From a virus, in the IMG/VR virus record IMGVR_UViG_3300032093_000035, positions 1 to 64,000 of that record: DNA of 64,000 nucleotides; one strand, given 5' to 3'. This document shows positions 7,392 through 61,484 of the stretch, in pieces. Both the position numbers and the translations under genes were made by a program. The notes beneath the pieces are model-generated. The model was given only the letters and a program-made list of their open reading frames with translations. It did not search any database and was not told the origin of the DNA. Numbering within the stretch: position 1 is the stretch's first letter; every line of letters begins with the position of its first letter.

Positions 7392-9056
7392 TTAAAGAGT
7401 GTTTAATCCGTGAACGTATACTTTTCCGTAGAATTCAGAACGAACTACTTTCTTCGCGTAACGTGTCATGACACCTTTACGTGGAGTGAAGTTAACTGGA
7501 TCGTATACAAGTGGAGTCATAATCAATGGAATGTATGGGCTAAATACAGCACCTGTTTCCAAGAATTGTGAACCTCTAAAGCCCATTAAGATTACATTTT
7601 CTAACATGTATGGGTTTTTATAAACTGTGTAACGGTTATTGATTGCACCAATTTTTTGTACACCTGCTGCAAATTCCATTTTAGTACCATCTGTGTCAGC
7701 GGCAAATCCTGGGATAGACTCAAGAACAGTTGCTACTGCAGGAGAACATACTAGGAAGTTAGCACCACCACGCAATGTTTTTTGGTGAATCTTATTAGAT
7801 ACTTTTTGAAGTTTAGTACCTAAAGTTTGGAACCATCCACCTTGAGTGTTATAGAAACCATCACCTAAACCAGTTGCTGATACAGCACCAGCTGCTACTT
7901 GTTCAAATGCAGTACCATTCCAAAGTGTATTGTTACGAGCTGACCAATACTCAGTTGTTGGAGCTGCTGCGATCAACATATCAAGGATTTCAAGATCGAT
8001 TTCCATTGATACATACTCAGACAACATTGAAGTCAATTCAGCTTCAGCATCAATTGAGTGGTAAGCATTTAAATCTTGAGCAAACTCAGGAGTCCAAACT
8101 GCTTTCAACTTACGAGTCTTAGCAACAATTGGCTCAGATTGCATTTCAAGGTTAATTTCTGGGATATCAATATCCGTACCTTGGTTAATACCAGATGTAC
8201 CATAAGCAGTACCTTTGAATGGATTTGCATCTTCAAAATCACCACGAGTGATATCTGTAGGTTGTTTGCTATAGTTTAATCTCAATGTACCTGCTGAAAT
8301 CGATGCACTAACTGCAGTTAATTGTGCGTTTGTTACAACGAATGATGCGGTGTAATTGCTTGTGATAGTAGAGAATGCTTGTACCGGTACAATTTCTGTA
8401 GATCCAGACAAGAATGTGAATGAACGTACTGCATAAAGATCTGCATTTGTAGGAACGTTAACTGTTACCACTTTAAATGCAGAAGATCCAGAGTATGCAG
8501 AATCACCATTAACTTGCGTAGCTGTTGGAGTAGAACCAGTAGTTGCTGTTACAATTGAAGCTGTTTCGTTGATTGAATATCCGAAACGACCTGCACCGTA
8601 AAGACCTCCTGATGCATCATTAGCAGTAGTAGTAACACCGAACATTGAATCGTCTGCGTTTGGAGAACCAAATGGATCACCTGTGCGGTTCAAGTTATCA
8701 TTGTCAAATCCAGGCTGAGCTGTACCATACTTAAAATCTAGATAGAAAATAAGTCCTGATGGTAAGTTCATTGGCTGAACTGAAACGAATTCTTTTGCTG
8801 CAAACTCAGCAAAGATACGACGTACCAATGGAAGTGCAACACCTGCCCACTCTTCAGATCCTGCTGTTGTACCAGTTGAAGTAGCTTCTTTTACTAATTG
8901 ACGTGCTTGGTTTTCAAGCAACTGAGCCATACCTGCTTTTTCGGTTTCGCCCTTAAGACCTTCTAATAGACCGGTCTTTTCCCATTTGCTAGCTAACGCT
9001 TTTGCTTGATTTCTTTGTACAAAATCGTTAGTTTGCAATAAATTTGAAATACTCAT
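7392..9056 (-). CDS. 23: Major capsid protein (gp23-like)
   Basis: 554 residues. The N-terminus (MSISNLLQTNDFVQRN...) is followed by helical segments and then the gp23 hallmark VALPLVRRIFAEF...VSVQPMNLPSGLIFYLDF at about residues 72-107. The C-terminal half has KLKAVWTPEFAQDLNAYHSID and ends with KVVRSEFYGKVYVHGL, also typical of T4-like capsid proteins. Candidate prohead-protease sites of the (L/I)xE type are seen at E32 and E48, where T4 gp23 loses its first 65 residues. It lies 28 bp after the scaffold gene and is followed by a strong terminator. Identity is secure; the exact mature N-terminus is not. Confidence 0.95.
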   Translation of the reverse strand: MSISNLLQTNDFVQRNQAKALASKWEKTGLLEGLKGETEKAGMAQLLENQARQLVKEATSTGTTAGSEEWAGVALPLVRRIFAEFAAKEFVSVQPMNLPSGLIFYLDFKYGTAQPGFDNDNLNRTGDPFGSPNADDSMFGVTTTANDASGGLYGAGRFGYSINETASIVTATTGSTPTATQVNGDSAYSGSSAFKVVTVNVPTNADLYAVRSFTFLSGSTEIVPVQAFSTITSNYTASFVVTNAQLTAVSASISAGTLRLNYSKQPTDITRGDFEDANPFKGTAYGTSGINQGTDIDIPEINLEMQSEPIVAKTRKLKAVWTPEFAQDLNAYHSIDAEAELTSMLSEYVSMEIDLEILDMLIAAAPTTEYWSARNNTLWNGTAFEQVAAGAVSATGLGDGFYNTQGGWFQTLGTKLQKVSNKIHQKTLRGGANFLVCSPAVATVLESIPGFAADTDGTKMEFAAGVQKIGAINNRYTVYKNPYMLENVILMGFRGSQFLETGAVFSPYIPLIMTPLVYDPVNFTPRKGVMTRYAKKVVRSEFYGKVYVHGLNTL

Positions 9057-11474: not shown

Positions 11475-12101
11475 TTATATCCTACATTTTCCATCTTCAC
11501 ATAGTATAGATGTAATTGCATCATGTACTCGTGCGTATTTATTTGTTATTGTTTTATTTACTGATTCATTCATCGATGTTGGACGCATAAATGCACCATG
11601 GGTTGATGGGTTTGATACAAAGTCCCAACAAATCAATTCAAAATCTTCTTGCACTTCAACTGTGCCTTCTGATCTAAGTTCTTTAACAGATCCTAATCCA
11701 CGTGATGAAATTCCTAATGTGATTCCAGCCTTGAAAAGTTCTTTAAGAATCTTACCTGACGGCGTATCTAAGATTTGCACTGCTCCTAATAAATCATCAC
11801 CTTTCCACCATATCTTCAACACGTTATGTGACACGTTGTTCAAGTTAACAACCGATGACTCTGGATGATCTAATTCGCCTAATGCACGATGTTGATTGAT
11901 GTATTCTTGTTGGTATCGTTGACATTCACGTTCCAAGATGCTTCTAGGATATACTCGGCCGTTTTGATTTTTTGCGCCTGCTCTTTGCAAAACTCCTTGC
12001 ACTACAAAACCACCTGGTATTCCATATGCAGCACCGCTTGATTCAGTAAGTGAACCAACTGGCTTAAATGGCATATATTCTACTATAAGTTGTTTTGACA
12101 T
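11475..12101 (-). CDS. 21: Prohead core protease (gp21-like)
   Basis: 208 residues. Motifs of the T4 gp21 serine protease family are visible: QNGRVYPRSILERE at about 46-59, ELDHPE with the likely catalytic His79, and GITLGISSRGLGSV with the likely Ser at 132-133. ELICWDFVSNPSTHGA follows. This enzyme digests the scaffold and trims head proteins after (L/I)xE. Its own N-terminus contains IVE and LTE within the first 20 residues, consistent with self-processing. It lies between two small head-core candidates. Many proteins in this window begin with candidate substrates for it. Confidence 0.93.
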   Translation of the reverse strand: MSKQLIVEYMPFKPVGSLTESSGAAYGIPGGFVVQGVLQRAGAKNQNGRVYPRSILERECQRYQQEYINQHRALGELDHPESSVVNLNNVSHNVLKIWWKGDDLLGAVQILDTPSGKILKELFKAGITLGISSRGLGSVKELRSEGTVEVQEDFELICWDFVSNPSTHGAFMRPTSMNESVNKTITNKYARVHDAITSILCEDGKCRI

Positions 12102-25113: not shown

Positions 25114-25130
25114 CTTTTAAATATAAATAT
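25114..25130 (-). promoter_or_regulatory. Late-promoter-like element before the large fibre gene
   Basis: The coding strand reads ATATTTATATTTAAAAG, 11 bp before the ATG. It touches the stop codon of the nuclease fusion gene. Confidence 0.55.
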
Positions 25131-28100
25131 CAGTTGTGTGAAATCTGGCTGAATCCGTTTAGTTTGTTTACTTCGATTAAGTTGTCGACCATATCTCGCA
25201 TTGAATCGACGTGTGAAATGATTATGGAGAAATCAAATTTAATTCTGAAATAATCAAATAGATTAACTACTGCAGAAATATGTTCTGTGTCTAAACTTCC
25301 CCAACCTTCATCAATTGCAATAAAATTAGGACGTGGTAGTGCTGATACATTGATAAGTGCTATGCGAATTGCAAGTGATGAAATAAATCGTTCCATACCG
25401 CTTGTTAATTCCAATGGCCAGAAATTATCTTCATCATAAATAATATACCCGTTGATATTCTTACCGTCGCTCTGAAGCACCATGTTAAAATCAACTACCT
25501 GATTCAGCACATTGTTAATTTCTGCTTCAATCTTTGGCATTGCTTTTGCAATTAACTCGTATGGAACCCCATCACGTTTAACTGATTCTAGATAATATTC
25601 GTATGCTTTGTATTCAGTCTCTAGTTGTTTGTATGTGTCTAATGACTCAATTGCTGTTTTCTTTGTGGTCTTAGCAACTTCAATTTTACCATGTTTACTA
25701 CGAATTGTGTCTGTAATTGTTTTTATTTTAATCGTAGCTGAATCAATTGATGTTTTTAACTTGTTAATTTTTTCATCAATTAGTTCATTATGTGTTATTG
25801 CAGTGGCATTAGCTTTAAATGATTCTTGACGTTCTAAACATGTTTCTAATTCTGATTCTCGAGTTTGTAATTCGCCTTCAATGATTTGAATTTGCAATTC
25901 TTGTTTTTCAATTGCTAAACGCTTTGTTTCATGTTTTTGTTTTAATATTGCTAATGCATTGGCATCTGTTCTAACATCTGAATATGTTGAAATTGTTGTT
26001 TTTAATTGTAATTGGGTCGCAGATAATTCAGTTAATATGTCTCTATCTGCAATAATCGTATTTTGTGCTTCAATTGCATTTTGTACGAAAACGTTAGATA
26101 CACAGTATTTACAGTTCGGATCATATTCATGGTCGGAAAGGTGATTAATTTTTTCTTGTTTTGCATTGATAATTCCTTGTTGTTTTTTAATACTCGAATC
26201 TATCTGTGCTAATTCCTTTTCGAGTTTTTCTAATTGTTGAAGTTTATCTGATAAGTCCGTTTCATTGTACTTGCGCTTATCTTTTTTAATGATTAAGTAT
26301 TCACTTGTTAGTGTTTCTAAAGTCGTTTCTTCGGTTTCAATATCAGCTTGTAATTGTGATATTTTTTTAGTTAACTCAGTTTCAATTTTAGTTAATTCAT
26401 TAATATTAGGCCCTGTATATGTTGTTGGCTGTTTTGTTTGAATTAAGTCTACAATCTCATTTTGATAATCATTGCGCTTTTCTTGCAATTCATCTTCTTG
26501 AGTTTCTAATGAAGTTATATCTTGTTGATTGTTTGAAATAATAGTATCTGCATCATTGATAATAACATCAAAATCTGTTTTCTTATATGATTTTAACTTA
26601 CCAGCAGTCTCTTTAATTTCATCGGATGCTAACTGATAAAGCTGTTCGAATACCGTAATATCTAAAAACTGTGAAAGAAGATCTTTGCGTTCTCTTTGTG
26701 ACTTTTCAATGAAGTTATTGTTGTCTGCCTGCAGTGAAAATGCAGTTAAAATGAAATCATCATAAGTTCCTAAATAACGGCGGATCGATTTGTTTGTGTC
26801 ACTACGTTCTTCACCATTTAGGTTTTCTGTGTCAGTATAAAAATCTACTAGCACTTTAACGTGACCATTCTTCTGCTTGATTCCATTGCGTTCAATAGTG
26901 TAAGTAACGCCGTTCATTTCAAATGTAAACTTTCCGCGGAATGAAGCCTTTTTATTGTTCAACACTTCATGTGCTTTGCCTGTTTTGCTGCACTTATCAA
27001 ATATAGTGTATGTAATTGCATCAAGCAATGATGACTTACCAGATGTGTTTGCAGCAAACAACCCGCACACATCTTTCATGTTTTCAAAGTTAATAACATT
27101 GCCTTCTCCGTAAGAAAACATGTTATCAAATTCAAATTGAATTGGGTGCCAGGTCATGTGTCGTACTGACTCTACTGCAGGAAGTTTTGAGTTTATTGTG
27201 CGATTGATATGACGAATTGCATCAGTTTCGTCTGCAGTAGCTTGTGGATAGTTCACGGAAATAAAATCTGTGATCAATGTATTTTGATATTCAACATCTC
27301 GTACATTTCCTATAGTAAACGATGATGTGGCGTTAGTGTTTGATATAGCTGCACTTCGTTGGATTGTGATATCTTGCACATCATATTTCTTGCGAATAGT
27401 AGCAATAAGTTTTTTCATGTCCGCTGCTGAGGTATCATTAAACTTGATACGAACTCTAGGTTTATTTGGCATACGATGTGGTGCTTTCACAATAGTAACA
27501 CCTTCAACTTCCAAAGTTACATATCCATAATCATTTTGTATTTCCACAAACTTTGCTTCACGACACGGCAAGTCCCACACCAAGATACCATGGTCTAATG
27601 CTTCACCGTGATTTTGTTGAATCAGTGATCCTGGGTATGCAATTGTCTTTGCGTCATTTAAGAACTGGGCTGGTTTATGAATATCGCCCAACAATGTAAT
27701 ATCATGTCCATCAAACAAATCAACACCTACATGCTCATTTGATATTTGATATCCAATATCTGTTTTTGCAGTGTTCACAGCACCATGGTGCATTGCAATT
27801 TTATATGCAGCATCGAATTGATTAGCACGAATATATTCGGTTGGTGCAACATCGACAGCCATATGATTAAACACAACTCCACCAATTTCAAACAAGCCGT
27901 TTTCTTTGATGAATATGATGTTTGGATTCTTAATAACATTGATAACCGGACTAATTGCGTCTGTGCGGTGCATGTTGTTCAGATTCATATCATGGTTACC
28001 AAGTATTACTACGGTTGGAATCATGAAGCCATCAAAAAATTCAACCAGCATATCAACTAACTCCGGAGACATATCTAGTTTGCTATGCACGATGTCACCT

Positions 28101-28270
28101 GTTACTACAGCAATACTTTCGCCGGTGCAATGTTGTGCGATATAATCAAACATGTTGCGAAACACTTCACGATATTCTCGGTGTCGTTTCAATGTACGAA
28201 TATGCACATCTGAAATGTGAAATATTTTGTTGATTACAGTTTGTCCTGTGTCAATATGTTTTATGTCCAT
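25130..28270 (-). CDS. 47-46: Mre11-Rad50 (gp47-gp46) fusion recombination nuclease
   Basis: 1046 residues in one frame. Residues about 15-350 are a calcineurin-like nuclease with SDVHIR, VTGDIVHS, LGNHDMN, MHHGAV and LGDIHKPA. From about 370 an SMC-type ATPase begins (FEFDNMFSYGEGNVINF), with Walker A in the variant form AANTSGKSS, Q-loop AFSLQADNNNFIE, a long coiled coil, a zinc hook CKYC near residue 720, signature SGMERFISSLAIRIAL and Walker B FIAIDEGWGSLD. T4 encodes these as separate genes 47 and 46, which resect DNA ends for recombination-dependent replication. Here they are naturally fused. It overlaps the primase gene by 10 bp. Confidence 0.93.
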   Translation of the reverse strand: MDIKHIDTGQTVINKIFHISDVHIRTLKRHREYREVFRNMFDYIAQHCTGESIAVVTGDIVHSKLDMSPELVDMLVEFFDGFMIPTVVILGNHDMNLNNMHRTDAISPVINVIKNPNIIFIKENGLFEIGGVVFNHMAVDVAPTEYIRANQFDAAYKIAMHHGAVNTAKTDIGYQISNEHVGVDLFDGHDITLLGDIHKPAQFLNDAKTIAYPGSLIQQNHGEALDHGILVWDLPCREAKFVEIQNDYGYVTLEVEGVTIVKAPHRMPNKPRVRIKFNDTSAADMKKLIATIRKKYDVQDITIQRSAAISNTNATSSFTIGNVRDVEYQNTLITDFISVNYPQATADETDAIRHINRTINSKLPAVESVRHMTWHPIQFEFDNMFSYGEGNVINFENMKDVCGLFAANTSGKSSLLDAITYTIFDKCSKTGKAHEVLNNKKASFRGKFTFEMNGVTYTIERNGIKQKNGHVKVLVDFYTDTENLNGEERSDTNKSIRRYLGTYDDFILTAFSLQADNNNFIEKSQRERKDLLSQFLDITVFEQLYQLASDEIKETAGKLKSYKKTDFDVIINDADTIISNNQQDITSLETQEDELQEKRNDYQNEIVDLIQTKQPTTYTGPNINELTKIETELTKKISQLQADIETEETTLETLTSEYLIIKKDKRKYNETDLSDKLQQLEKLEKELAQIDSSIKKQQGIINAKQEKINHLSDHEYDPNCKYCVSNVFVQNAIEAQNTIIADRDILTELSATQLQLKTTISTYSDVRTDANALAILKQKHETKRLAIEKQELQIQIIEGELQTRESELETCLERQESFKANATAITHNELIDEKINKLKTSIDSATIKIKTITDTIRSKHGKIEVAKTTKKTAIESLDTYKQLETEYKAYEYYLESVKRDGVPYELIAKAMPKIEAEINNVLNQVVDFNMVLQSDGKNINGYIIYDEDNFWPLELTSGMERFISSLAIRIALINVSALPRPNFIAIDEGWGSLDTEHISAVVNLFDYFRIKFDFSIIISHVDSMRDMVDNLIEVNKLNGFSQISHN

Positions 28271-29205
28271 ATCATTCCCATTTTAAGTTGCATTAACCGT
28301 TCAAAAGTTAATACATCGGTATCTTGTATAATTTCGTTGATTCGTTGAAAGCCTAGTTCTGCGGCATCTTTATCTCGCAGTTCTATAAAGTACACATTTA
28401 AGCCTTCTGACATAAATCGCTCTGCAATTTGAATTGCATTTTTCAATGCATCAGCATCCAAACAAATATAAATGTCTCGTACTCGTTCTTGTATGATTTT
28501 CTTTTGTAGTGCAGGTTGAATGATTTTTCCGAACAACGGAATTGCATTGCGTTTAATTGCGATTGCATCAAAACTTCCTTCACAAAGTATGATTGGTTGT
28601 GACCAATTTATAAAAAGGTCAAACCCAATAATGTCTTTTGAAATTTTTGGATTCTTGTGTTTTTGTGTGTCTGATTTATAATATGCTCTAGACACAAAAT
28701 AATTCAATTGACCCATGGCATCATAGCTAGGAATAATTATTTTGCCGGAATACTCTCCAGACTCGCAAAATCCAATTCGATACTTGATGATATCAAATAT
28801 AGTTACTCCGCGCTTTTTTAAATAATGCACGGCATTACGATAATCCGGAGATGTTTTAGGAATCCAAAGTGGTTTGTACTCAGCCGGCAATTGTATTGTT
28901 TCTACTTTTGTTGGAGCATCATTGTTTACACGATATCGAGATGATTCGATAATACGTGATAATTGTTCAAAACGTTCTTTAGGTAGATTGAGTTGTTTGA
29001 ACAAAGTAACAATGCTACGACCTTTTTTATCAGATATCCAACAATGCCAAGCATTCTCACCGTTTGAATTAGTGTGAATATCAATTTCTAATTTTGGCTT
29101 GTAGTGAGAAACAAAAGGAGAGAAGAATGCAATGTTATTACCAGACGTAGGTTTACCTTTACCTAGTACTGATTCTAATAACTGTAATAACTTAATATTC
29201 TTCAT
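28261..29205 (-). CDS. 61: DnaG-type primase (gp61-like)
   Basis: 314 residues. The TOPRIM core is clear: IILCEGSFDAIAIKRNAIPL near residue 205 and IYICLDADALKNA near 247, with an upstream GKIIIPSYDAMGQLNYFVSR. The N-terminal part has the layout of a CHC2 zinc domain (IAFFSPFVSHYKPKLEIDI, then AWHCWISDKKG), but only one of the expected cysteines is present, so zinc binding may be lost. It makes RNA primers for lagging-strand synthesis. It overlaps the nuclease fusion gene by 10 bp and has a long AT-rich region ahead of it. Confidence 0.88.
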   Translation of the reverse strand: MKNIKLLQLLESVLGKGKPTSGNNIAFFSPFVSHYKPKLEIDIHTNSNGENAWHCWISDKKGRSIVTLFKQLNLPKERFEQLSRIIESSRYRVNNDAPTKVETIQLPAEYKPLWIPKTSPDYRNAVHYLKKRGVTIFDIIKYRIGFCESGEYSGKIIIPSYDAMGQLNYFVSRAYYKSDTQKHKNPKISKDIIGFDLFINWSQPIILCEGSFDAIAIKRNAIPLFGKIIQPALQKKIIQERVRDIYICLDADALKNAIQIAERFMSEGLNVYFIELRDKDAAELGFQRINEIIQDTDVLTFERLMQLKMGMIWT

Positions 29206-29393: not shown

Positions 29394-29876
29394 TTATCCA
29401 AAAAAAGTTTTAATTGTCTTTGGTTCTTCGCCAGTCTTCAAACATTCCGTGAGCCAATCTGCGGGAATATCTTTCTTTGCAACATGTTTAATACCCAGCT
29501 TTAATGCATAAGCTTCATATGTAGTTTTGCTACCTTTTGATATTTTTTGTTGGGGTGATTGGAATACCATACGAATATCTACACCGGGATTCGATGCTAG
29601 CACATGTTTCATTTTAAGACGATCGGCACTAGTCCATCGGCCTTTAGTTTCAATGTACATTAATTCACCATTCTTTTTAGTAAACACAAAATCTGGAGTG
29701 TATTTTGCTTTACGTTCTGGTACTATATAATTTAGTATTTCAGTTTCATAATTCAAAGGATATTCAGTAGTTTTTATTTGATCTGCTACTGTGTGTTCTA
29801 ATCCTGATTTATAACCGTATTTTAGCGCTGCAGCTCTTTTTGAGTTGCCAGAGCTATGATAATGATTTTTTGCCAT
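29394..29876 (-). CDS. T7 endonuclease I-like Holliday junction resolvase
   Basis: 160 residues. The core reads YKSGLEHTVADQI, YETEILNYIVPERKAKYTPD, FVFTKKNGELMYIETKGRWT and SADRLKMKHVLASNPG. The E...PD...ExK arrangement (E27, PDF near 62, IETKGR near 75) is that of phage T7 gp3-type endonuclease I, a junction-resolving PD-(D/E)xK nuclease that debranches DNA before packaging. The C-terminal 45 residues are an extra basic/helical tail. It precedes the primase and Mre11-Rad50 genes, consistent with a DNA recombination role. Confidence 0.85.
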   Translation of the reverse strand: MAKNHYHSSGNSKRAAALKYGYKSGLEHTVADQIKTTEYPLNYETEILNYIVPERKAKYTPDFVFTKKNGELMYIETKGRWTSADRLKMKHVLASNPGVDIRMVFQSPQQKISKGSKTTYEAYALKLGIKHVAKKDIPADWLTECLKTGEEPKTIKTFFG

Positions 29877-29889
29877 AACCTATTTCTTT

Positions 29890-30426
29890 TTACCAATCGA
29901 CTAATACCATGTTTCCGTCCCACATCATAACGTTGTCAGAACGAAAATCTAAATCTAAATCGAATTCTGGAATTTGAAGTTTATCTATATCTGTTTTTAA
30001 TGTGTTTAAAAAATTATCAATTATCGGATTAATACTTCCAGCATCAGGTAAAAAATCAAATATTGAAACTTCGCCTCCTTCATCCCGAGCAAATGAAGCA
30101 AAGTCTTGCATAAATAAATCAATTTCTTTTTTTAACCGAGTTGGTAGTTCCGAAGCATTTGCCATTATGTACATGTTTTTACCATCAACATAATATACCG
30201 GTATAAATGTAGTAAACTCATTGTATCTATCAACGATAATACTTGCTACTTCATATTCATCACGTTCTTTAGTAATCTTAAAAACTTTATCTTCTCTATC
30301 AATTTCATAAACGCGACCGTTATCACCAGCACCAATTAAACGGAATTGTTTTTGTTGTATTTTGTCTAAACATTTCTGAATATCTGAATTTGATATTTCT
30401 TTTAAAAGTTGTTTTAATCGTATCAT
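29890..30426 (-). CDS. Mini protein-kinase-like protein with capsid-targeting-like N-terminus
   Basis: 178 residues. It begins MIRLKQLLKE-IS, matching the MIRLKxLLxE start shared by other genes here, with a predicted gp21 cut after Glu10. The body has kinase-fold landmarks: glycine loop RLIGAGDNGRVYEI at 29-42, VFKITK with a candidate ATP-binding Lys near 50, a Glu in EYEVAS near 59, DFRSDNV with D160 and N165 spaced as in HRDxxxxN, and LVDW with D177 in the DFG position. The protein stops there, so it lacks an activation segment and C-lobe tail. It could be an active minimal kinase, a small-molecule kinase or a pseudokinase. Confidence 0.7.
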   Translation of the reverse strand: MIRLKQLLKEISNSDIQKCLDKIQQKQFRLIGAGDNGRVYEIDREDKVFKITKERDEYEVASIIVDRYNEFTTFIPVYYVDGKNMYIMANASELPTRLKKEIDLFMQDFASFARDEGGEVSIFDFLPDAGSINPIIDNFLNTLKTDIDKLQIPEFDLDLDFRSDNVMMWDGNMVLVDW

Positions 30427-30428
30427 GA

Positions 30429-31994
30429 TTACCTAGGAATTACATTGTTATTTAAGTCCATACGAACTAAGAAATTTAAATCTACATTTGCTGGTTTTTT
30501 AATTGGTTGTGCTAATTTTCCAATTGCTAACAATTGCCCTGCATCATCATACAATCCTATAGTTGTTATATACGGAGTAAATGTACTACTAGTAACAAAT
30601 GAATGGTATGTAATATCATTATCCGCCGTAAGAGTTGGATTCAATGACATATTAAAATCACCAGCATCTAATTTAACAATAACACCTAATTCATAAATTG
30701 TAACCGTGCTTTTATACTGAAAGGAAATAAAATCATTAACGGTATTATGAAATCGATAATCTGGAGTTGATACTATCGCGATTCCTTGTTTTGCAAAAAT
30801 ATTTCCTACGTGATTAGTTTGAAGTAGTGTACCAGTTGTTAGATCCGGTGTGGCTAAAGATCCAATTTCTGCAAGAGATAGTGACTTATTAAATATTCTA
30901 ACTTCATCAATAACAGCTGTAAGATTTGATCCAGTAGTAGTATAACCTCCAATATACAATTTATCTGTGTTATCAATACGTGCTGATGCCGATAATGGTG
31001 ATTGCGTATTAATTAGTAATGGACTAGTAGCAGATGATTCTAACGCTCCATTTACATACAATTCAACCGAGCTGCCAGATTTTTGACAAATAAAGTGATT
31101 CCAGTTAGTTGTATTAAAAACAGATGATGTAATTTGTGTTTTAAATGTAGTGCTACCCGCTACAGAAAATACAATCTGATTGCTACCGCTCAATTCAATT
31201 CGGAACGGATATTGTGGAGTTAAACTACTAGATGCTTTTGTTGCAATTAATTGTGTTGCATTAGATGATCCGGAGAACCAAAAAGCAATTGCATAATCAT
31301 GATCACGATCATAAAATCCGTTTAAATCAGATTCAATATAACCAGCACCATCAAATTTAGCAGCTAATCCAACCGGTAAACTTGATATGTCGGCATCAGG
31401 TACTCCTGGTACATATGTTACTCCTGAACATACATATGGTACTCTGCTAGTATCGAAATATTCATTAAATCCTTCATACCACATCACCCCTGTAGCAAAT
31501 GATGAAGTATCAATATCCACATTGTATAAATTGCCATATCGATCAGACTGAATGCCGCTACCAACATTATGTTTTATTTCAAATGATTTTGGTTTAACCG
31601 ATTCTCCGTATTTTAATTGTGGTATAGAAAATATCGAAGCTGTTTGATACAAGTATTTATGTGTACGATTTAAATCTGTTGGACCTAGTGTGTTATATGG
31701 TTGATCTTTATATTTGTAAAATAACTGATTAACTGAATAATATGTTACAGTTTGCAAACTATCATCAATATTTTTTGCATCATTATATGTTAATTCGGTA
31801 TCTAGAGCTGGTAATACATCTGAATATACTCCTTGTAATGGCAAACAACTCGAAGTAGCACTACCGGAGCCTATCACCCATTGCTTATAACTTTGGAACG
31901 GTGTTAAACTAACATCAGAACTATTTATCTTTTTGAAAACAGTTGGATACACCCCTTGATATGTGTCAGTATTTGAAATTTTTGTTTCTGCCAT
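30429..31994 (-). CDS. Virion protein with LamG-like domain
   Basis: 521 residues. The middle (about 215-385) is a LamG/concanavalin-like sandwich: AAKFDGAGYIESD, YAIAFWFSGSS, WNHFICQKSGSSVELYVNGA and AVIDEVRIFNKSLSLAEI are its characteristic strands. The last 80 residues (FTPYITTIGLYDDAGQLLAI then GKLAQPIKK) are very similar to the C-terminus of the next upstream gene, indicating a shared module. Such proteins decorate baseplates and fibres and may bind surface glycans. It has its own promoter nested in a terminator hairpin. Confidence 0.75.
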   Translation of the reverse strand: MAETKISNTDTYQGVYPTVFKKINSSDVSLTPFQSYKQWVIGSGSATSSCLPLQGVYSDVLPALDTELTYNDAKNIDDSLQTVTYYSVNQLFYKYKDQPYNTLGPTDLNRTHKYLYQTASIFSIPQLKYGESVKPKSFEIKHNVGSGIQSDRYGNLYNVDIDTSSFATGVMWYEGFNEYFDTSRVPYVCSGVTYVPGVPDADISSLPVGLAAKFDGAGYIESDLNGFYDRDHDYAIAFWFSGSSNATQLIATKASSSLTPQYPFRIELSGSNQIVFSVAGSTTFKTQITSSVFNTTNWNHFICQKSGSSVELYVNGALESSATSPLLINTQSPLSASARIDNTDKLYIGGYTTTGSNLTAVIDEVRIFNKSLSLAEIGSLATPDLTTGTLLQTNHVGNIFAKQGIAIVSTPDYRFHNTVNDFISFQYKSTVTIYELGVIVKLDAGDFNMSLNPTLTADNDITYHSFVTSSTFTPYITTIGLYDDAGQLLAIGKLAQPIKKPANVDLNFLVRMDLNNNVIPR

Positions 31995-57451: not shown

Positions 57452-59221
57452 TTATAATTTTTTAACGCCAACGTGTATATGGTTATCATGATCTCCTTCT
57501 GGAGTACGCCAACCAAATTGATATCGATATCCGTCTTTATTAACATTAAACCATTTCCCACCTTTGTATTCCGGATGACCAAACCAATTCATGATGTGTG
57601 CTAGTAGTTCATCACCTTTAGCTAAATTTTCTGGGGTTGGTTTACCGGTAAACAAATCTACTGCGTATTTATTTAAACTACCAACCCAATGGTCTGATGT
57701 GGCACCAGAGCTAGTTTTAACTGTGGTTCGCTTTTGGGATGTAACAATGTTTTTACCAACAAATTTATTTGCAACATTTGCAACTTCTAAAGCTTTTTGC
57801 ATTGAGCCGGCCCAATCACCGTCAATGCCACCTGGGGTAACTTTACCGGAATCAACAGCACCTTGTGGTAATCCAAATGTAGATGCAGCGACGGTAGCTA
57901 GCGTACCAGTGCCTAATATCCCAGACATCACATTGGTTAAATTGGTCCAATCAGTCTCAGCATCTTTTTCATCTTTTGCATCTGCTGGCGCTGTTGTATC
58001 AAAAAATTCCCTTGCATATTTTTTACGCTTATCGTATGTTGCTTGATTTGCTTTTGGACGTTCAAATTTCTTACAAAACATATCCGCAGCTTCTTCTGGA
58101 TCTTCTGTGGTTTTCAATGTTTTATACAAAGAGTTATATGTTGGTTTTGATAATTCCCACAACAAGAAATCTAATTGGCCTTCAATTGAATATGGATCTT
58201 TACCATTTTGCTTAGAATACTGAATTAATCCATTTTTACCGGTCCAACGATCATTATGCCATTGAGCTAATCCAATCGATGTTCCATGGTCACCTTTAAT
58301 CGTAGTACTAAACGTCCCAGCTGATTCAACATATAAATTTGCAGTAACGCCTGCTGCGCCTGCATCGGATAATCCTTTTGATTTCAGATAATCTATAATC
58401 GTTTTTGCAGTGCCTCTTTGTTCGGTACCAACTGTAACTTTTGTATTGTCGACAGCTACTATCGGGGCAACTACAGGTGCAACTTTTAGTGCTTCAATTT
58501 TATCATCAACTTTACCTGCTCGAATTTCATCTTTAGTAGCAACAATACCACGTTTATTTAGTTTTTGCTGTATGTCATCAATATCATATTTTTTACCAGC
58601 AACAGTTACTGTCTCAGCAGCCGAGTCTTCCGAATCAGTGGATCTGCTAGGTATAGTATCAGATAGTACGGAAATCGCAGCTTTAAAGAGTTTGGAGTTT
58701 GCTTCCTGATTTAAATCGTTTCCAGATTTTGAAAAATATTCTCGTTTATCAGTTAAAAAATTAATATCAATAATATCATCCGCATCAGCATTAGTTGTTA
58801 ACCAATTATTAATCGTGTTAATCTTTTTTTCAAATTTTTCGTCTACCTGATCTTTTTTATTGTCAATATAATCAAAACTAGGTATAGTGCATAAAATACA
58901 TTTAACGTCTGCTTTTTGGGCAAATCTAATTATTAATCGAAAATTTTCAATTATGTTTAGCAATGTCTTGTTTTCATTGCGACCACTACAAAAAACAACA
59001 ACAGCATTATAACCGTTATTAATTTCATTGCGCACGGTGTTCATCATTGATTCTGAATCAGCACCTGGTTCAATAAATTTAGCGCCATCGATTGTTTGTA
59101 ATCGAAATAAACGATTCATGAAACTATATTTAGGTTTTGAGAATTGATCACCTACTAATAATACACGAGCCGTTTCTGGAGCCGGTTTGTCTTCGAATAA
59201 TAAAGATTTTAATCGTATCAT
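57452..59221 (-). CDS. Multi-domain peptidoglycan hydrolase with capsid-targeting-like N-terminus
   Basis: 589 residues. Leader MIRLKSLLFE-D is followed by: (1) residues about 18-190, an SGNH-hydrolase-like fold (RVLLVGDQFS, VVVFCSGRNENKT); (2) about 255-400, a phage tail lysozyme-like domain (AAGVTANLYVESAGTFSTTI, GTSIGLAQWHNDRWTGKNGL); (3) about 470-589, a peptidase M15/VanY-like zinc domain (SDHWVGSLNKYAVDLFTG, GDHDNHIHVGVKKL). All three suit degradation of peptidoglycan. The MIRLK start with Glu10 predicts head packaging and gp21 trimming, rather than tail-tip location. It is coupled by ATGA to the upstream 48-residue gene. Confidence 0.8.
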   Translation of the reverse strand: MIRLKSLLFEDKPAPETARVLLVGDQFSKPKYSFMNRLFRLQTIDGAKFIEPGADSESMMNTVRNEINNGYNAVVVFCSGRNENKTLLNIIENFRLIIRFAQKADVKCILCTIPSFDYIDNKKDQVDEKFEKKINTINNWLTTNADADDIIDINFLTDKREYFSKSGNDLNQEANSKLFKAAISVLSDTIPSRSTDSEDSAAETVTVAGKKYDIDDIQQKLNKRGIVATKDEIRAGKVDDKIEALKVAPVVAPIVAVDNTKVTVGTEQRGTAKTIIDYLKSKGLSDAGAAGVTANLYVESAGTFSTTIKGDHGTSIGLAQWHNDRWTGKNGLIQYSKQNGKDPYSIEGQLDFLLWELSKPTYNSLYKTLKTTEDPEEAADMFCKKFERPKANQATYDKRKKYAREFFDTTAPADAKDEKDAETDWTNLTNVMSGILGTGTLATVAASTFGLPQGAVDSGKVTPGGIDGDWAGSMQKALEVANVANKFVGKNIVTSQKRTTVKTSSGATSDHWVGSLNKYAVDLFTGKPTPENLAKGDELLAHIMNWFGHPEYKGGKWFNVNKDGYRYQFGWRTPEGDHDNHIHVGVKKL

Positions 59222-59544: not shown

Positions 59545-59925
59545 TTATTTCTTGAATGTTTCTCTTAAAATATAATCATTGCCTTTAAGATTGCGAAGGA
59601 TTCTTTGTTCTAAAGGAATTTCACGCATTTCTTGCAAACCTGATTTTTTAATTAAAGTAGATTCATTTTTTTCTTCTTTATCAGCAAAAGCTTTTTTCAT
59701 TGATTCTTCTTCATCACCATCATTATCGGCATCGATATAATCTGGTCTTGCTGACTCATCTACATCTGATTCTTCTGATTCATCATTGAATGGCATATTC
59801 AATTCTGCTTCCTCACGCAGTTTGGCTTCGTATGCTGCGGTTGTATCTGCGAGGGTAGGAAGGGGCTTACCTTCTTCGCGTTCCCAGGCATACCCTTCGT
59901 TTAATATTGATTTTAGTTTGATCAT
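59545..59925 (-). CDS. Small acidic protein with capsid-targeting-like N-terminus
   Basis: 126 residues using the ATG at 59925, which follows AAAGGAAC; an in-frame upstream Met is ignored because it would read through the promoter element. It begins MIKLKSILNE-GYAWEREEG. The body is strongly acidic and polar (DESEESDVDESARPDYIDAD), with a basic C-terminus (LRNLKGNDYILRETFKK). It is probably an internal head protein cut after residue 10. Terminators lie on both sides, so it is its own unit. Confidence 0.7.
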   Translation of the reverse strand: MIKLKSILNEGYAWEREEGKPLPTLADTTAAYEAKLREEAELNMPFNDESEESDVDESARPDYIDADNDGDEEESMKKAFADKEEKNESTLIKKSGLQEMREIPLEQRILRNLKGNDYILRETFKK

Positions 59926-60004: not shown

Positions 60005-60574
60005 TTACATGCTTGGATCGGCCGGAGTATCAATGCCAGATGCATCGGGTCGGGCTTGACCCTGTTTGCGCACCAAGTACAATTTTGTTGATCCATGCTC
60101 TACACGGAAATCGCTCAGATCCGGATTGGTTTGTAGGAAGCGGGCATATATGCGTGATTTTTGTTGCTCCTTGTCCGGGTTGTTGTCTCCTCCAGTTATA
60201 TCAATCACATCTACCGCCGCATGCGTATCCGCAAAATCGCGAATTGCAAGCCCAATAGTTTTGAAAAACCGCAGCGTGTTCGTCTCACCAGCAGCTGCGC
60301 TACTACGAGCCGATGTAGTCCAATTGGCCCGGGCGTCTCGAACAGCAGCCATTTGACGATCTTGGGTAAAGAAAGCAAATTGCCATTCTCCCGTGTCCCC
60401 GAATTGAGAACGATAGTAGTGGTCGAACTTGATCAGGATGGGGTGGGCATCGGCTTGGATCTGCGTTTCGAAACTTTTGGCATCGCCCCAACGATCACGC
60501 CACGTGAACTGCGTTGTGTATGGTTGAACCCCAGCTAACGAGATTTCCGCAAGTAAGTTGCTTAATCGTATCAT
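60005..60574 (-). CDS. Putative internal head protein, MIRLSNLLAE class
   Basis: 189 residues from the ATG at 60574, three bases after the previous stop (TGAC-ATG); a longer upstream frame would overlap it by 83 bases. The start is MIRLSNLLAE-ISLAG. The body is alpha/beta (ILIKFDHYYRSQFGDTGEWQ, FFKTIGLAIRDFADTHAAVD, VIDITGGDNNPDKEQQKSRI) with a Pro-rich tail. It resembles phage internal or ADP-ribosylation-related proteins only in layout; no active site was identified. GC content is distinctly higher than the neighbours, suggesting a different origin. Confidence 0.7.
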   Translation of the reverse strand: MIRLSNLLAEISLAGVQPYTTQFTWRDRWGDAKSFETQIQADAHPILIKFDHYYRSQFGDTGEWQFAFFTQDRQMAAVRDARANWTTSARSSAAAGETNTLRFFKTIGLAIRDFADTHAAVDVIDITGGDNNPDKEQQKSRIYARFLQTNPDLSDFRVEHGSTKLYLVRKQGQARPDASGIDTPADPSM

Positions 60575-60575
60575 G

Positions 60576-60962
60576 TCATGATAATAGTTTTTTGCGTTGC
60601 ATGTCCCGAATGCTTTGTTTGTGCCATTTAGTTGCAAGATCCATTCTACTAGCAACAAATTGAAGCAATGATTGACCTTTGCTGTTTTTTGGCGATTTCA
60701 TCCACAAGTTGTTAACGCGTGTGTAAAGACCTTTTTTTCGTGACATTGCAATGAACGCTGCTTCCACAGCAGCTTCTTGCGTACCTAACAAGTTGTCAGT
60801 GAAACGCAGAATTATGCGCAGAATGTCCGCAGGATTAACTAGACCCTCAATAGTGCGATATGGAATTCCAAGATCGATTCCAGCACGTGGATCAGACCCA
60901 ATAGCTCCAATGATTTTATCTAGCATTGATTGTTCTGTTAATATGTGTTTTAAACGTATCAT
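60576..60962 (-). CDS. Putative internal head protein, MIRLKHILTE class
   Basis: 128 residues from the ATG at 60962, the position that puts the MIRLKHILTE leader at the N-terminus. After Glu10 the sequence continues QSMLDKIIGAIGSDP, then a mostly helical, basic chain (GTQEAAVEAAFIAMSRKKGL, KWHKQSIRDMQRKKLLS). No domain was recognised. It is adjacent to two other genes of the same leader class in a compact run. Confidence 0.7.
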   Translation of the reverse strand: MIRLKHILTEQSMLDKIIGAIGSDPRAGIDLGIPYRTIEGLVNPADILRIILRFTDNLLGTQEAAVEAAFIAMSRKKGLYTRVNNLWMKSPKNSKGQSLLQFVASRMDLATKWHKQSIRDMQRKKLLS

Positions 60963-61022: not shown

Positions 61023-61484
61023 CTATTTGTCTTTTATTCCCGTCCAATCATAACTAGTACTCGACCCACCATCACGTTCCAATTCCATGTACGATGCAGT
61101 TTCCTGTGATATAGAATACCCACGCAAAGCGCGCAGCACATAAGCCCGGTATAAACGCATTCTGCGTGGATCAGATTTGGCTACTCCGAACACCACTGTT
61201 TCAGGACGCCACTTCTCCACTGCCTTGCGGGCAATCTCAACTATGGTGCTCATTACACGGTACACATCCGATTCCGCGGTCTCCACATCATGATCCCATC
61301 CGCCTTGTGGGTTCTTCGTAGCAAACGCAATTTCCATGACCTCATCAGATCCATATGGAAATGACACTTGATACATGGTACCACGCTCTGTTTCGAAATA
61401 GGCTTCTCCGTTGTACATGTTGTATGGGTATGGTGTCGCCGTGCCTTCCCCTATCTCTGCTAGTATGTGTTTAAGACGTATCAT
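61023..61484 (-). CDS. Putative internal head protein, MIRLKHILAE class
   Basis: 153 residues beginning MIRLKHILAE-IGEGTATP. The body looks like a compact alpha/beta domain (GEAYFETERGTMYQVSFPYG, SDEVMEIAFATKNPQGGWDH, TIVEIARKAVEKWRPETVVF, SDPRRMRLYRAYVLRALRGY). The SDPRRMRLYRAYVLRAL segment resembles GNAT-like or small phage proteins but no catalytic site is seen. The gene is GC-rich relative to the window. It follows the 99-residue gene by 3 bp. Confidence 0.7.
   Translation of the reverse strand: MIRLKHILAEIGEGTATPYPYNMYNGEAYFETERGTMYQVSFPYGSDEVMEIAFATKNPQGGWDHDVETAESDVYRVMSTIVEIARKAVEKWRPETVVFGVAKSDPRRMRLYRAYVLRALRGYSISQETASYMELERDGGSSTSYDWTGIKDK

Follow-up and report, generated by a model that had tools for sequence, protein, structure and literature searches.

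The best explanation of a 178-aa phage protein is a minimal protein-kinase-like domain preceded by a T4-type capsid-targeting sequence (residues 1-10); the protein would be packaged, cleaved and ejected and would act by phosphorylation. The probability of this reading is put at roughly 0.55. In the structural model, the minimal domain consists of the N-lobe, alpha-D/E, the catalytic loop and the beta7-beta8 hairpin and is cut at the DFG aspartate. Computation established the fold, the residue conservation, the leader, the gene context and the presence of a prohead protease. The window, i.e. the whole stretch of DNA analyzed, comprises 64,000 nucleotides and is part of a 112,402-bp IMG/VR virus record (IMGVR_UViG_3300032093_000035).

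Kinase-like domain and its end at the DFG position

The 178-aa open reading frame (29890-30426) is carried by the minus strand, at the coordinates given in the initial annotation, which named no strand. All other features given below with a range in the window or record are located on the minus strand, too. The assignment draws on the reading frame, 139 homologues and AlphaFold2 models. The kinase residues named initially were all recovered (G32-A-G34-D-N-G37-R-V39-Y-E-I, V48-F-K50-I-T-K, D160...N165 and D177). The glycine-rich loop GAGDNGRV (residues 32-39, 30310-30333) has G34-D-N-G37 and the following Y40 invariant in 57 sequences. The beta3 lysine K50 (VFKIT, 30277-30279) and E57 (30256-30258), the candidate alpha-C glutamate in model helix 55-64, are invariant in the same alignment. 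The catalytic-loop equivalent D160-F-R-S-D-N165 (29932-29949) keeps D160, F161 and N165 without exception. Catalytic Asp and Asn are five residues apart and the Asp at the DFG position follows at the 12-13 residues expected of a kinase fold. The His of HRD and the Gly of DFG are absent. A regular expression for these motifs (G..G.[VI][YFW], ..K, D....N, D) matched one open frame in the 112,402-bp record, the 178-aa frame, and had no matches in 20 shuffles of each frame.

D177 and W178 (29893-29898) are followed directly by the stop codon, in agreement with the early observation that the chain ends right after D177. All 136 complete homologues stop at the same D177-W178, with the ending V[ML][VI]DW and lengths of 177, 178 or 180 aa. 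The C-terminal subdomain, comprising the activation segment and alpha-F to alpha-I, is absent from the 178-aa protein. A truncation by frameshift or assembly error was rejected, as the identical end occurs in 136/136 homologues from many contigs. A split kinase with its C-lobe in the next reading frame was rejected as well: the gene that follows encodes a T7-type endonuclease I (PF05367, E 1e-32) in the window and, in the phage immuto, an unrelated protein, so that a conserved C-lobe partner is lacking.

AlphaFold2 reached a pLDDT of 70.9 with 31 sequences and of 80.5 (pTM 0.76) with 57 sequences. The model contains the strands b1 (29-34), b2 (37-42), b3 (45-51), b4 (77-80), b5 (85-88), b7 (166-169) and b8 (172-175) and the helices aC (55-64), aD (96-115) and aE (134-150), with an additional element at 122-128. 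The elements follow the kinase order b1-b2-b3-aC-b4-b5-aD-aE-b7-b8, and the chain stops at the DFG position. Structure prediction and fold comparison, proposed initially as a check, thus returned a kinase-like model; a non-kinase outcome was not obtained. The 50 PDB matches listed have the kinase fold and include CDK6, CDK2, MPS1, CK2, APH(2''), RIO and choline kinase, with best probabilities of 0.99-1.00; FN3K and, with its kinase-homology region, RNase L are also among the matches listed for both models. The E-values are modest (best 2.5e-3 and 3.5e-3 for the two models), and TM-scores on the query are mostly 0.4-0.45. Such modest, not strong, scores fit a modelled domain that spans some 60% of a kinase. 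Matches in BFVD comprised one direct homologue, followed by uncharacterized phage proteins and many annotated phage and giant-virus kinases. Sequence searches with the window protein alone against Pfam, PHROGs, NCBIfam, PDB and INPHARED yielded no kinase match, and a bridge through the homologue immuto26A_178 was therefore needed.

A scan of IMG/VR with the 178-aa protein identified 56 relatives of 52-100% identity, and wider scans with an alignment and a diverged member added more. In total, 139 kinase-like loci were read, with some contigs counted twice, yielding 61 distinct complete proteins. The 57-sequence alignment represents the close family (identity to the window protein 52-81%); M1, E10, G34, D35, N36, G37, Y40, K50, E57, D160, N165, D177 and W178 are invariant. 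A loss of D160, N165 or D177 among homologues, named at the outset as evidence against a kinase, was not found in these 57 sequences. The ratio pN/pS was 0.20 in the N-lobe, 0.20 in the catalytic end, 0.45 in aD-aE, 0.33 in the leader and 0.42 in the linker behind it. Hence, the strongest purifying constraint falls on the N-lobe and the catalytic end. Together with the constant end and the invariant residues, these values indicate that selection maintains the active-site residues as well as the truncated length. Relatives of the kinase-like protein were found neither in GTDB genome contigs nor in INPHARED (tblastn with the window protein), and a search of Microcystis phage Mel-JY01 gave no match.

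Leader, companion genes and late-gene context

The protein starts with MIRLKQLLKE (residues 1-10, 30397-30426), and a prohead-protease cut is predicted after E10 according to the rule for T4 capsid-targeting sequences. E10 is present in 139/139 homologues. In 52 unique kinase coding sequences, L4 was conserved in 51 and L/I7, L8 and E10 in all 52; I8 appears in a few marine members. In T4 IPIII, targeting needs no more than the first 10 residues; positions 4 and 7 matter for it, and positions 8 and 10 for processing (PMC9026906). The sequences of T4 IPII and IPIII both start with MKTYQEFIAE. The P1' residue is Met, Ile or Leu in the kinase-like family vs. Ala in IPII and IPIII. Residues 1-8 have a pLDDT below 50 in the model, as expected of a detachable leader.

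Six of 143 crude genes in the record start with MI[RK]L..[LI][LI].E, and an internal ATG (60962) adds a seventh, the only match among 755 internal methionines. With a looser motif, about 0.16 genes were expected per 143; for the seven leader genes observed, the probability of chance is about 0. The initial annotation placed the kinase gene apart from the other MIRLK genes, which are indeed located at 57.5-61.5 kb and 85.9 kb. The first (57452-59221) encodes a protein of 589 aa with the leader MIRLKSLLFE and a Phage_lysozyme2 domain, which may be a muramidase packed in the head rather than in the tail. It is followed by genes with the leaders MIKLKSILNE (59545-59925) and MIRLSNLLAE (60005-60574). 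The 128-aa product of 60576-60962 (MIRLKHILTE) shows a sub-threshold match to the DRAT ADP-ribosyltransferase family (PF07357, E 4.4e-5, 23.2 bits, cut-off 25); if real, this would make it another cargo of the Alt type. The relatives found for this protein were all identical to it. The gene 61023-61484 (MIRLKHILAE) encodes a DUF6934 protein (PF22028, E 1.8e-7). By eye, the 60005-60574 protein resembles a diverged paralogue of the latter, and immuto26A_40 (MIKLIDLLTE...) looks similar. Outside the window, record positions 85874-86377 encode a protein with MIRLKDLLKE and 98656-98982 one with MKLRNLLFE, which is 69% identical to immuto26A_189. The latter protein itself has a leader-like start, MRLLELLRE. 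Weaker leader-like starts are present at 96290, 98656 and 50260. The leader genes are mostly unrelated, comprising the kinase, Phage_lysozyme2, DUF6934, the sub-threshold DRAT protein and proteins of unknown function. For three cargo types, diverged homologues have kept the leader; in those of the DUF6934 protein and of the 98656 protein, its last residue is Glu.

The expected processing enzyme is a gp21-type prohead protease of the peptidase family S77 (11475-12101; PF03420, E 6e-32). A gp23-type major capsid protein is encoded at 7392-9056 (PF07068, E 2.5e-75). An S77 protease was found in five of six other kinase-carrier contigs checked. The reading of the N-terminus as a capsid-targeting-like leader is well supported at the sequence level by the match to the T4 positions, the gp21-type protease, the sharing of the leader among unrelated genes and its retention in diverged homologues. 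Judged from the leader, the phage probably packs the kinase-like protein into its particle and passes it to the host along with the DNA.

Upstream, the gene for a virion structural protein with a LamG domain (30429-31994; PF13385, E 2e-18) abuts the kinase start and occupies this place in 129/129 loci with room for it. The distance from the LamG-protein stop to the kinase start is 2 nt here and lies between -4 and +3 nt in 127 of 139 copies, which suggests a coupling to late structural genes. Downstream are located the endonuclease I gene (29394-29876; 125/130 loci), a DNA primase gene (28261-29205; phrog_47) and a single 1046-aa reading frame for a fused SbcD-SbcC (gp47/gp46; 25130-28270), which begins like an SbcD phosphoesterase and resembles SbcC in its remaining part. 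The early description of the gene as lying next to recombination genes is therefore right for the downstream side with endonuclease I, primase and SbcD-SbcC; the upstream side is a late tail and structural block.

Relatives in cultured phages and known phage kinases

Judged by gp23, the nearest phages in culture are Flavobacterium phage immuto (56%) and Microcystis phage Mel-JY01 (55%). Of the 155 crude genes in the record, 46 have a homologue in immuto, and the head and baseplate module is among them. Based on these homologues, the host of the T4-like phage is likely a member of the Bacteroidota.

The protein immuto26A_178 of phage vB_FspM_immuto_2-6A (MW353175) is annotated as hypothetical and has 146 aa. 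It exhibits a leader (MISIYNILKE), the loop GEGDYGAVF, a KKV lysine, DNIM and a C-terminal IDV. BLASTP against the window protein gave E 2e-4 in a single comparison. In hhalign, immuto-type and window families matched with P 1.7e-8, with 7.8e-7 when residues 1-12 were left out and with 9.7e-6 when residues 1-26 were left out; ten column-shuffled controls gave P 0.05-0.93. Thirty of 32 immuto-type loci encode a product of 146-147 aa ending in [IV]DV, and a primase gene is located downstream in 26 of 27 loci with room, as in the window. The two proteins are thus homologous, with a similar leader and N-lobe, the same truncation and a primase gene downstream. Differences are a shorter aD-aE part in immuto26A_178 and the lack of an endonuclease I gene between kinase and primase. 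Furthermore, immuto-type proteins keep the Asn and the Asp of the DFG position, and five residues before the Asn, at the D160 position, they have Ser or Arg, not Asp. An invariant D120 precedes the Asn by 12 residues and, provided that a 7-residue insert comes after it, could serve as the base. In immuto, genes near the kinase (102294-103359 and 103806-104354) carry the repeated N-termini MKKSxLxxLIKEEL and MENFDLKKFLVENxLT, which also occur elsewhere in the phage and are possibly further targeting signals.

The immuto-type profile matched the family of RaK2_00356 over nearly the full kinase part (P 3e-4; minimum of 40 shuffles 0.047). RaK2_00356, a member of phrog_4301, has a match to PF00069 (E 2.8e-4, 20.8 bits) below the cut-off of 31.7. 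A profile search of the phages RaK2 and CBB returned no match, and RaK2_00356 was recognized by reading instead. This protein and its relatives in Klebsiella, Escherichia and Salmonella jumbo phages are small (about 194 aa) and kinase-like, and a short tail is what remains of their C-terminal part. Unlike the window protein, they are devoid of a capsid-targeting-like leader and continue after DYG for about 25-30 residues; direct sequence similarity between both groups is marginal (P 0.02-0.1). The family phrog_4301, of unknown function in PHROGs, is this kinase-like jumbo-phage family, and some members are annotated as putative protein kinase.

T7 gp0.7 is a phage kinase, too, but in contrast to the predicted packaging of the window protein it is made after infection and not packaged. 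Host proteins are its substrates, according to a citation in PMC5512222. Kinase domains of the STYK superfamily in phage polyvalent proteins have lost the entire C-terminal subdomain and kept the active-site residues (Iyer et al., 2017, PMC5512222). They were described from (pro)phages of the Verrucomicrobia-Chlamydia group and of Bacteroidetes, with stand-alone versions in Bacteroidetes, and their packaging was predicted (PMC5512222). The loss of the C-terminal subdomain is common to them and the window protein. Signatures of the polyvalent kinases are a Glu before strand 2, a Gln in the final strand of the N-lobe and an insert between the catalytic His and Asp (PMC5512222). Compared by description, the window protein has none of the three: D35-N36 precede b2, b5 reads MYIM without Gln, and the catalytic His is missing. 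A T4-type leader and a late-gene context take the place of the polyvalent multidomain architecture. A phage kinase with a capsid-targeting sequence was not reported in the open-access literature searched; subscription papers were outside the search. For polyvalent phage proteins, the loss of the C-terminal subdomain has been on record since 2017; the window family adds the T4-type leader and lacks the polyvalent signatures.

Proposed action, alternatives and significance

From the leader, the gene context and the conserved residues, we infer late expression, packaging, cleavage, ejection and activity. The kinase-like protein would be made late, together with the structural genes, and would be docked to the prohead core by its leader (L4, L/I7). 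The gp21-type protease would cut after [LI]xE10, releasing a mature domain of 168 residues, which would be packaged with the DNA and ejected into the host. There, the glycine loop would bind Mg-ATP together with K50, N165 and D177. A D160-dependent phosphorylation of a host or phage protein would occur early, before phage gene expression, as Alt acts by ADP-ribosylation. The usual substrate platform is absent, as activation segment and alpha-F to alpha-I are missing. Kinase activity of the window protein is predicted and likely, with the caution that the immuto orthologue has no Asp at the D160 position.

The strongest rival, still rather unlikely, is a head-packaged pseudokinase, which would bind ATP or a protein and transfer no phosphate. 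It might sequester or decoy a host kinase, a defense sensor or nucleotides, or act as one of the core proteins of the head. The complete lack of C-terminal subdomain and activation segment would fit such a role, as would the immuto-type orthologues, which replace the catalytic Asp by Ser or Arg and retain the other two residues. Pseudokinases usually do not maintain K50, E57, D160, N165 and D177, yet all five are invariant in the close family, and D120 could be the base in the immuto-type proteins, given the insert mentioned above.

An even less probable reading sees a kinase or pseudokinase that stays out of the head, with MIRLKxLLxE as an ordinary N-terminal helix or as a docking peptide inside the infected cell. 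Packaging of the kinase-like protein is, after all, a deduction, and the leader on a tail-lysozyme-domain protein might mean that the tag marks something other than the head. A leader on at least seven mostly unrelated genes that fits the T4 positions for targeting and processing speaks against this reading, as do its disorder in the model, its retention in the diverged homologues of three cargo types and the presence of S77 genes. A small alpha/beta protein unrelated to kinases, e.g. a PrlF-type antitoxin with chance motifs, was largely refuted and is very improbable: 22 of 31 members match PrlF_antitoxin weakly (best E 2.7e-5, window-protein residues 94-149), but the window protein reaches 13.4 bits where the curated cut-off is 32, the residues matched are modelled mostly as helix (pLDDT about 90), unlike the AbrB-type beta hairpins that form PrlF N-termini, and kinases are the only group indicated by the fold searches and the invariant residues. 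The weak matches to GH62, PrlF and S100 were judged to be chance (GH62 and PrlF below the Pfam cut-offs; S100 with E 0.007 and no curated cut-off).

For the packaged kinase-like domain, the functional parallel to T4 Alt suggested in the initial annotation is plausible by analogy. Shared with Alt and IPI-III are an N-terminal leader of about 10 residues with hydrophobic or aromatic positions 4, 7 and 8 and Glu10 (IPII, IPIII), a head of the gp21/gp23 type and the candidate role of a virion-delivered protein-modifying enzyme. Alt differs in being an ADP-ribosyltransferase of another fold, as opposed to the kinase core of the window protein. A wider generalization is tentative: T4-like phages of Bacteroidota may pack an active kinase core, without C-terminal subdomain and substrate platform, via a cleavable T4-type leader and within a set of leader-tagged effectors, and thereby phosphorylate host targets before phage gene expression.

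The leader can be used for listing further cargo, and the orthologue in the cultured phage immuto makes packaging and cleavage directly testable. The cut at the DFG aspartate, kept in 136 complete and 30 immuto-type copies, raises the question whether a kinase core without C-lobe can transfer phosphate. Virion-delivered protein-modifying enzymes are best known from the ADP-ribosyltransferase Alt of T4. A kinase core with an Alt-style packing tag would, if confirmed, extend virion-delivered modification to phosphorylation and to phages of Bacteroidota.
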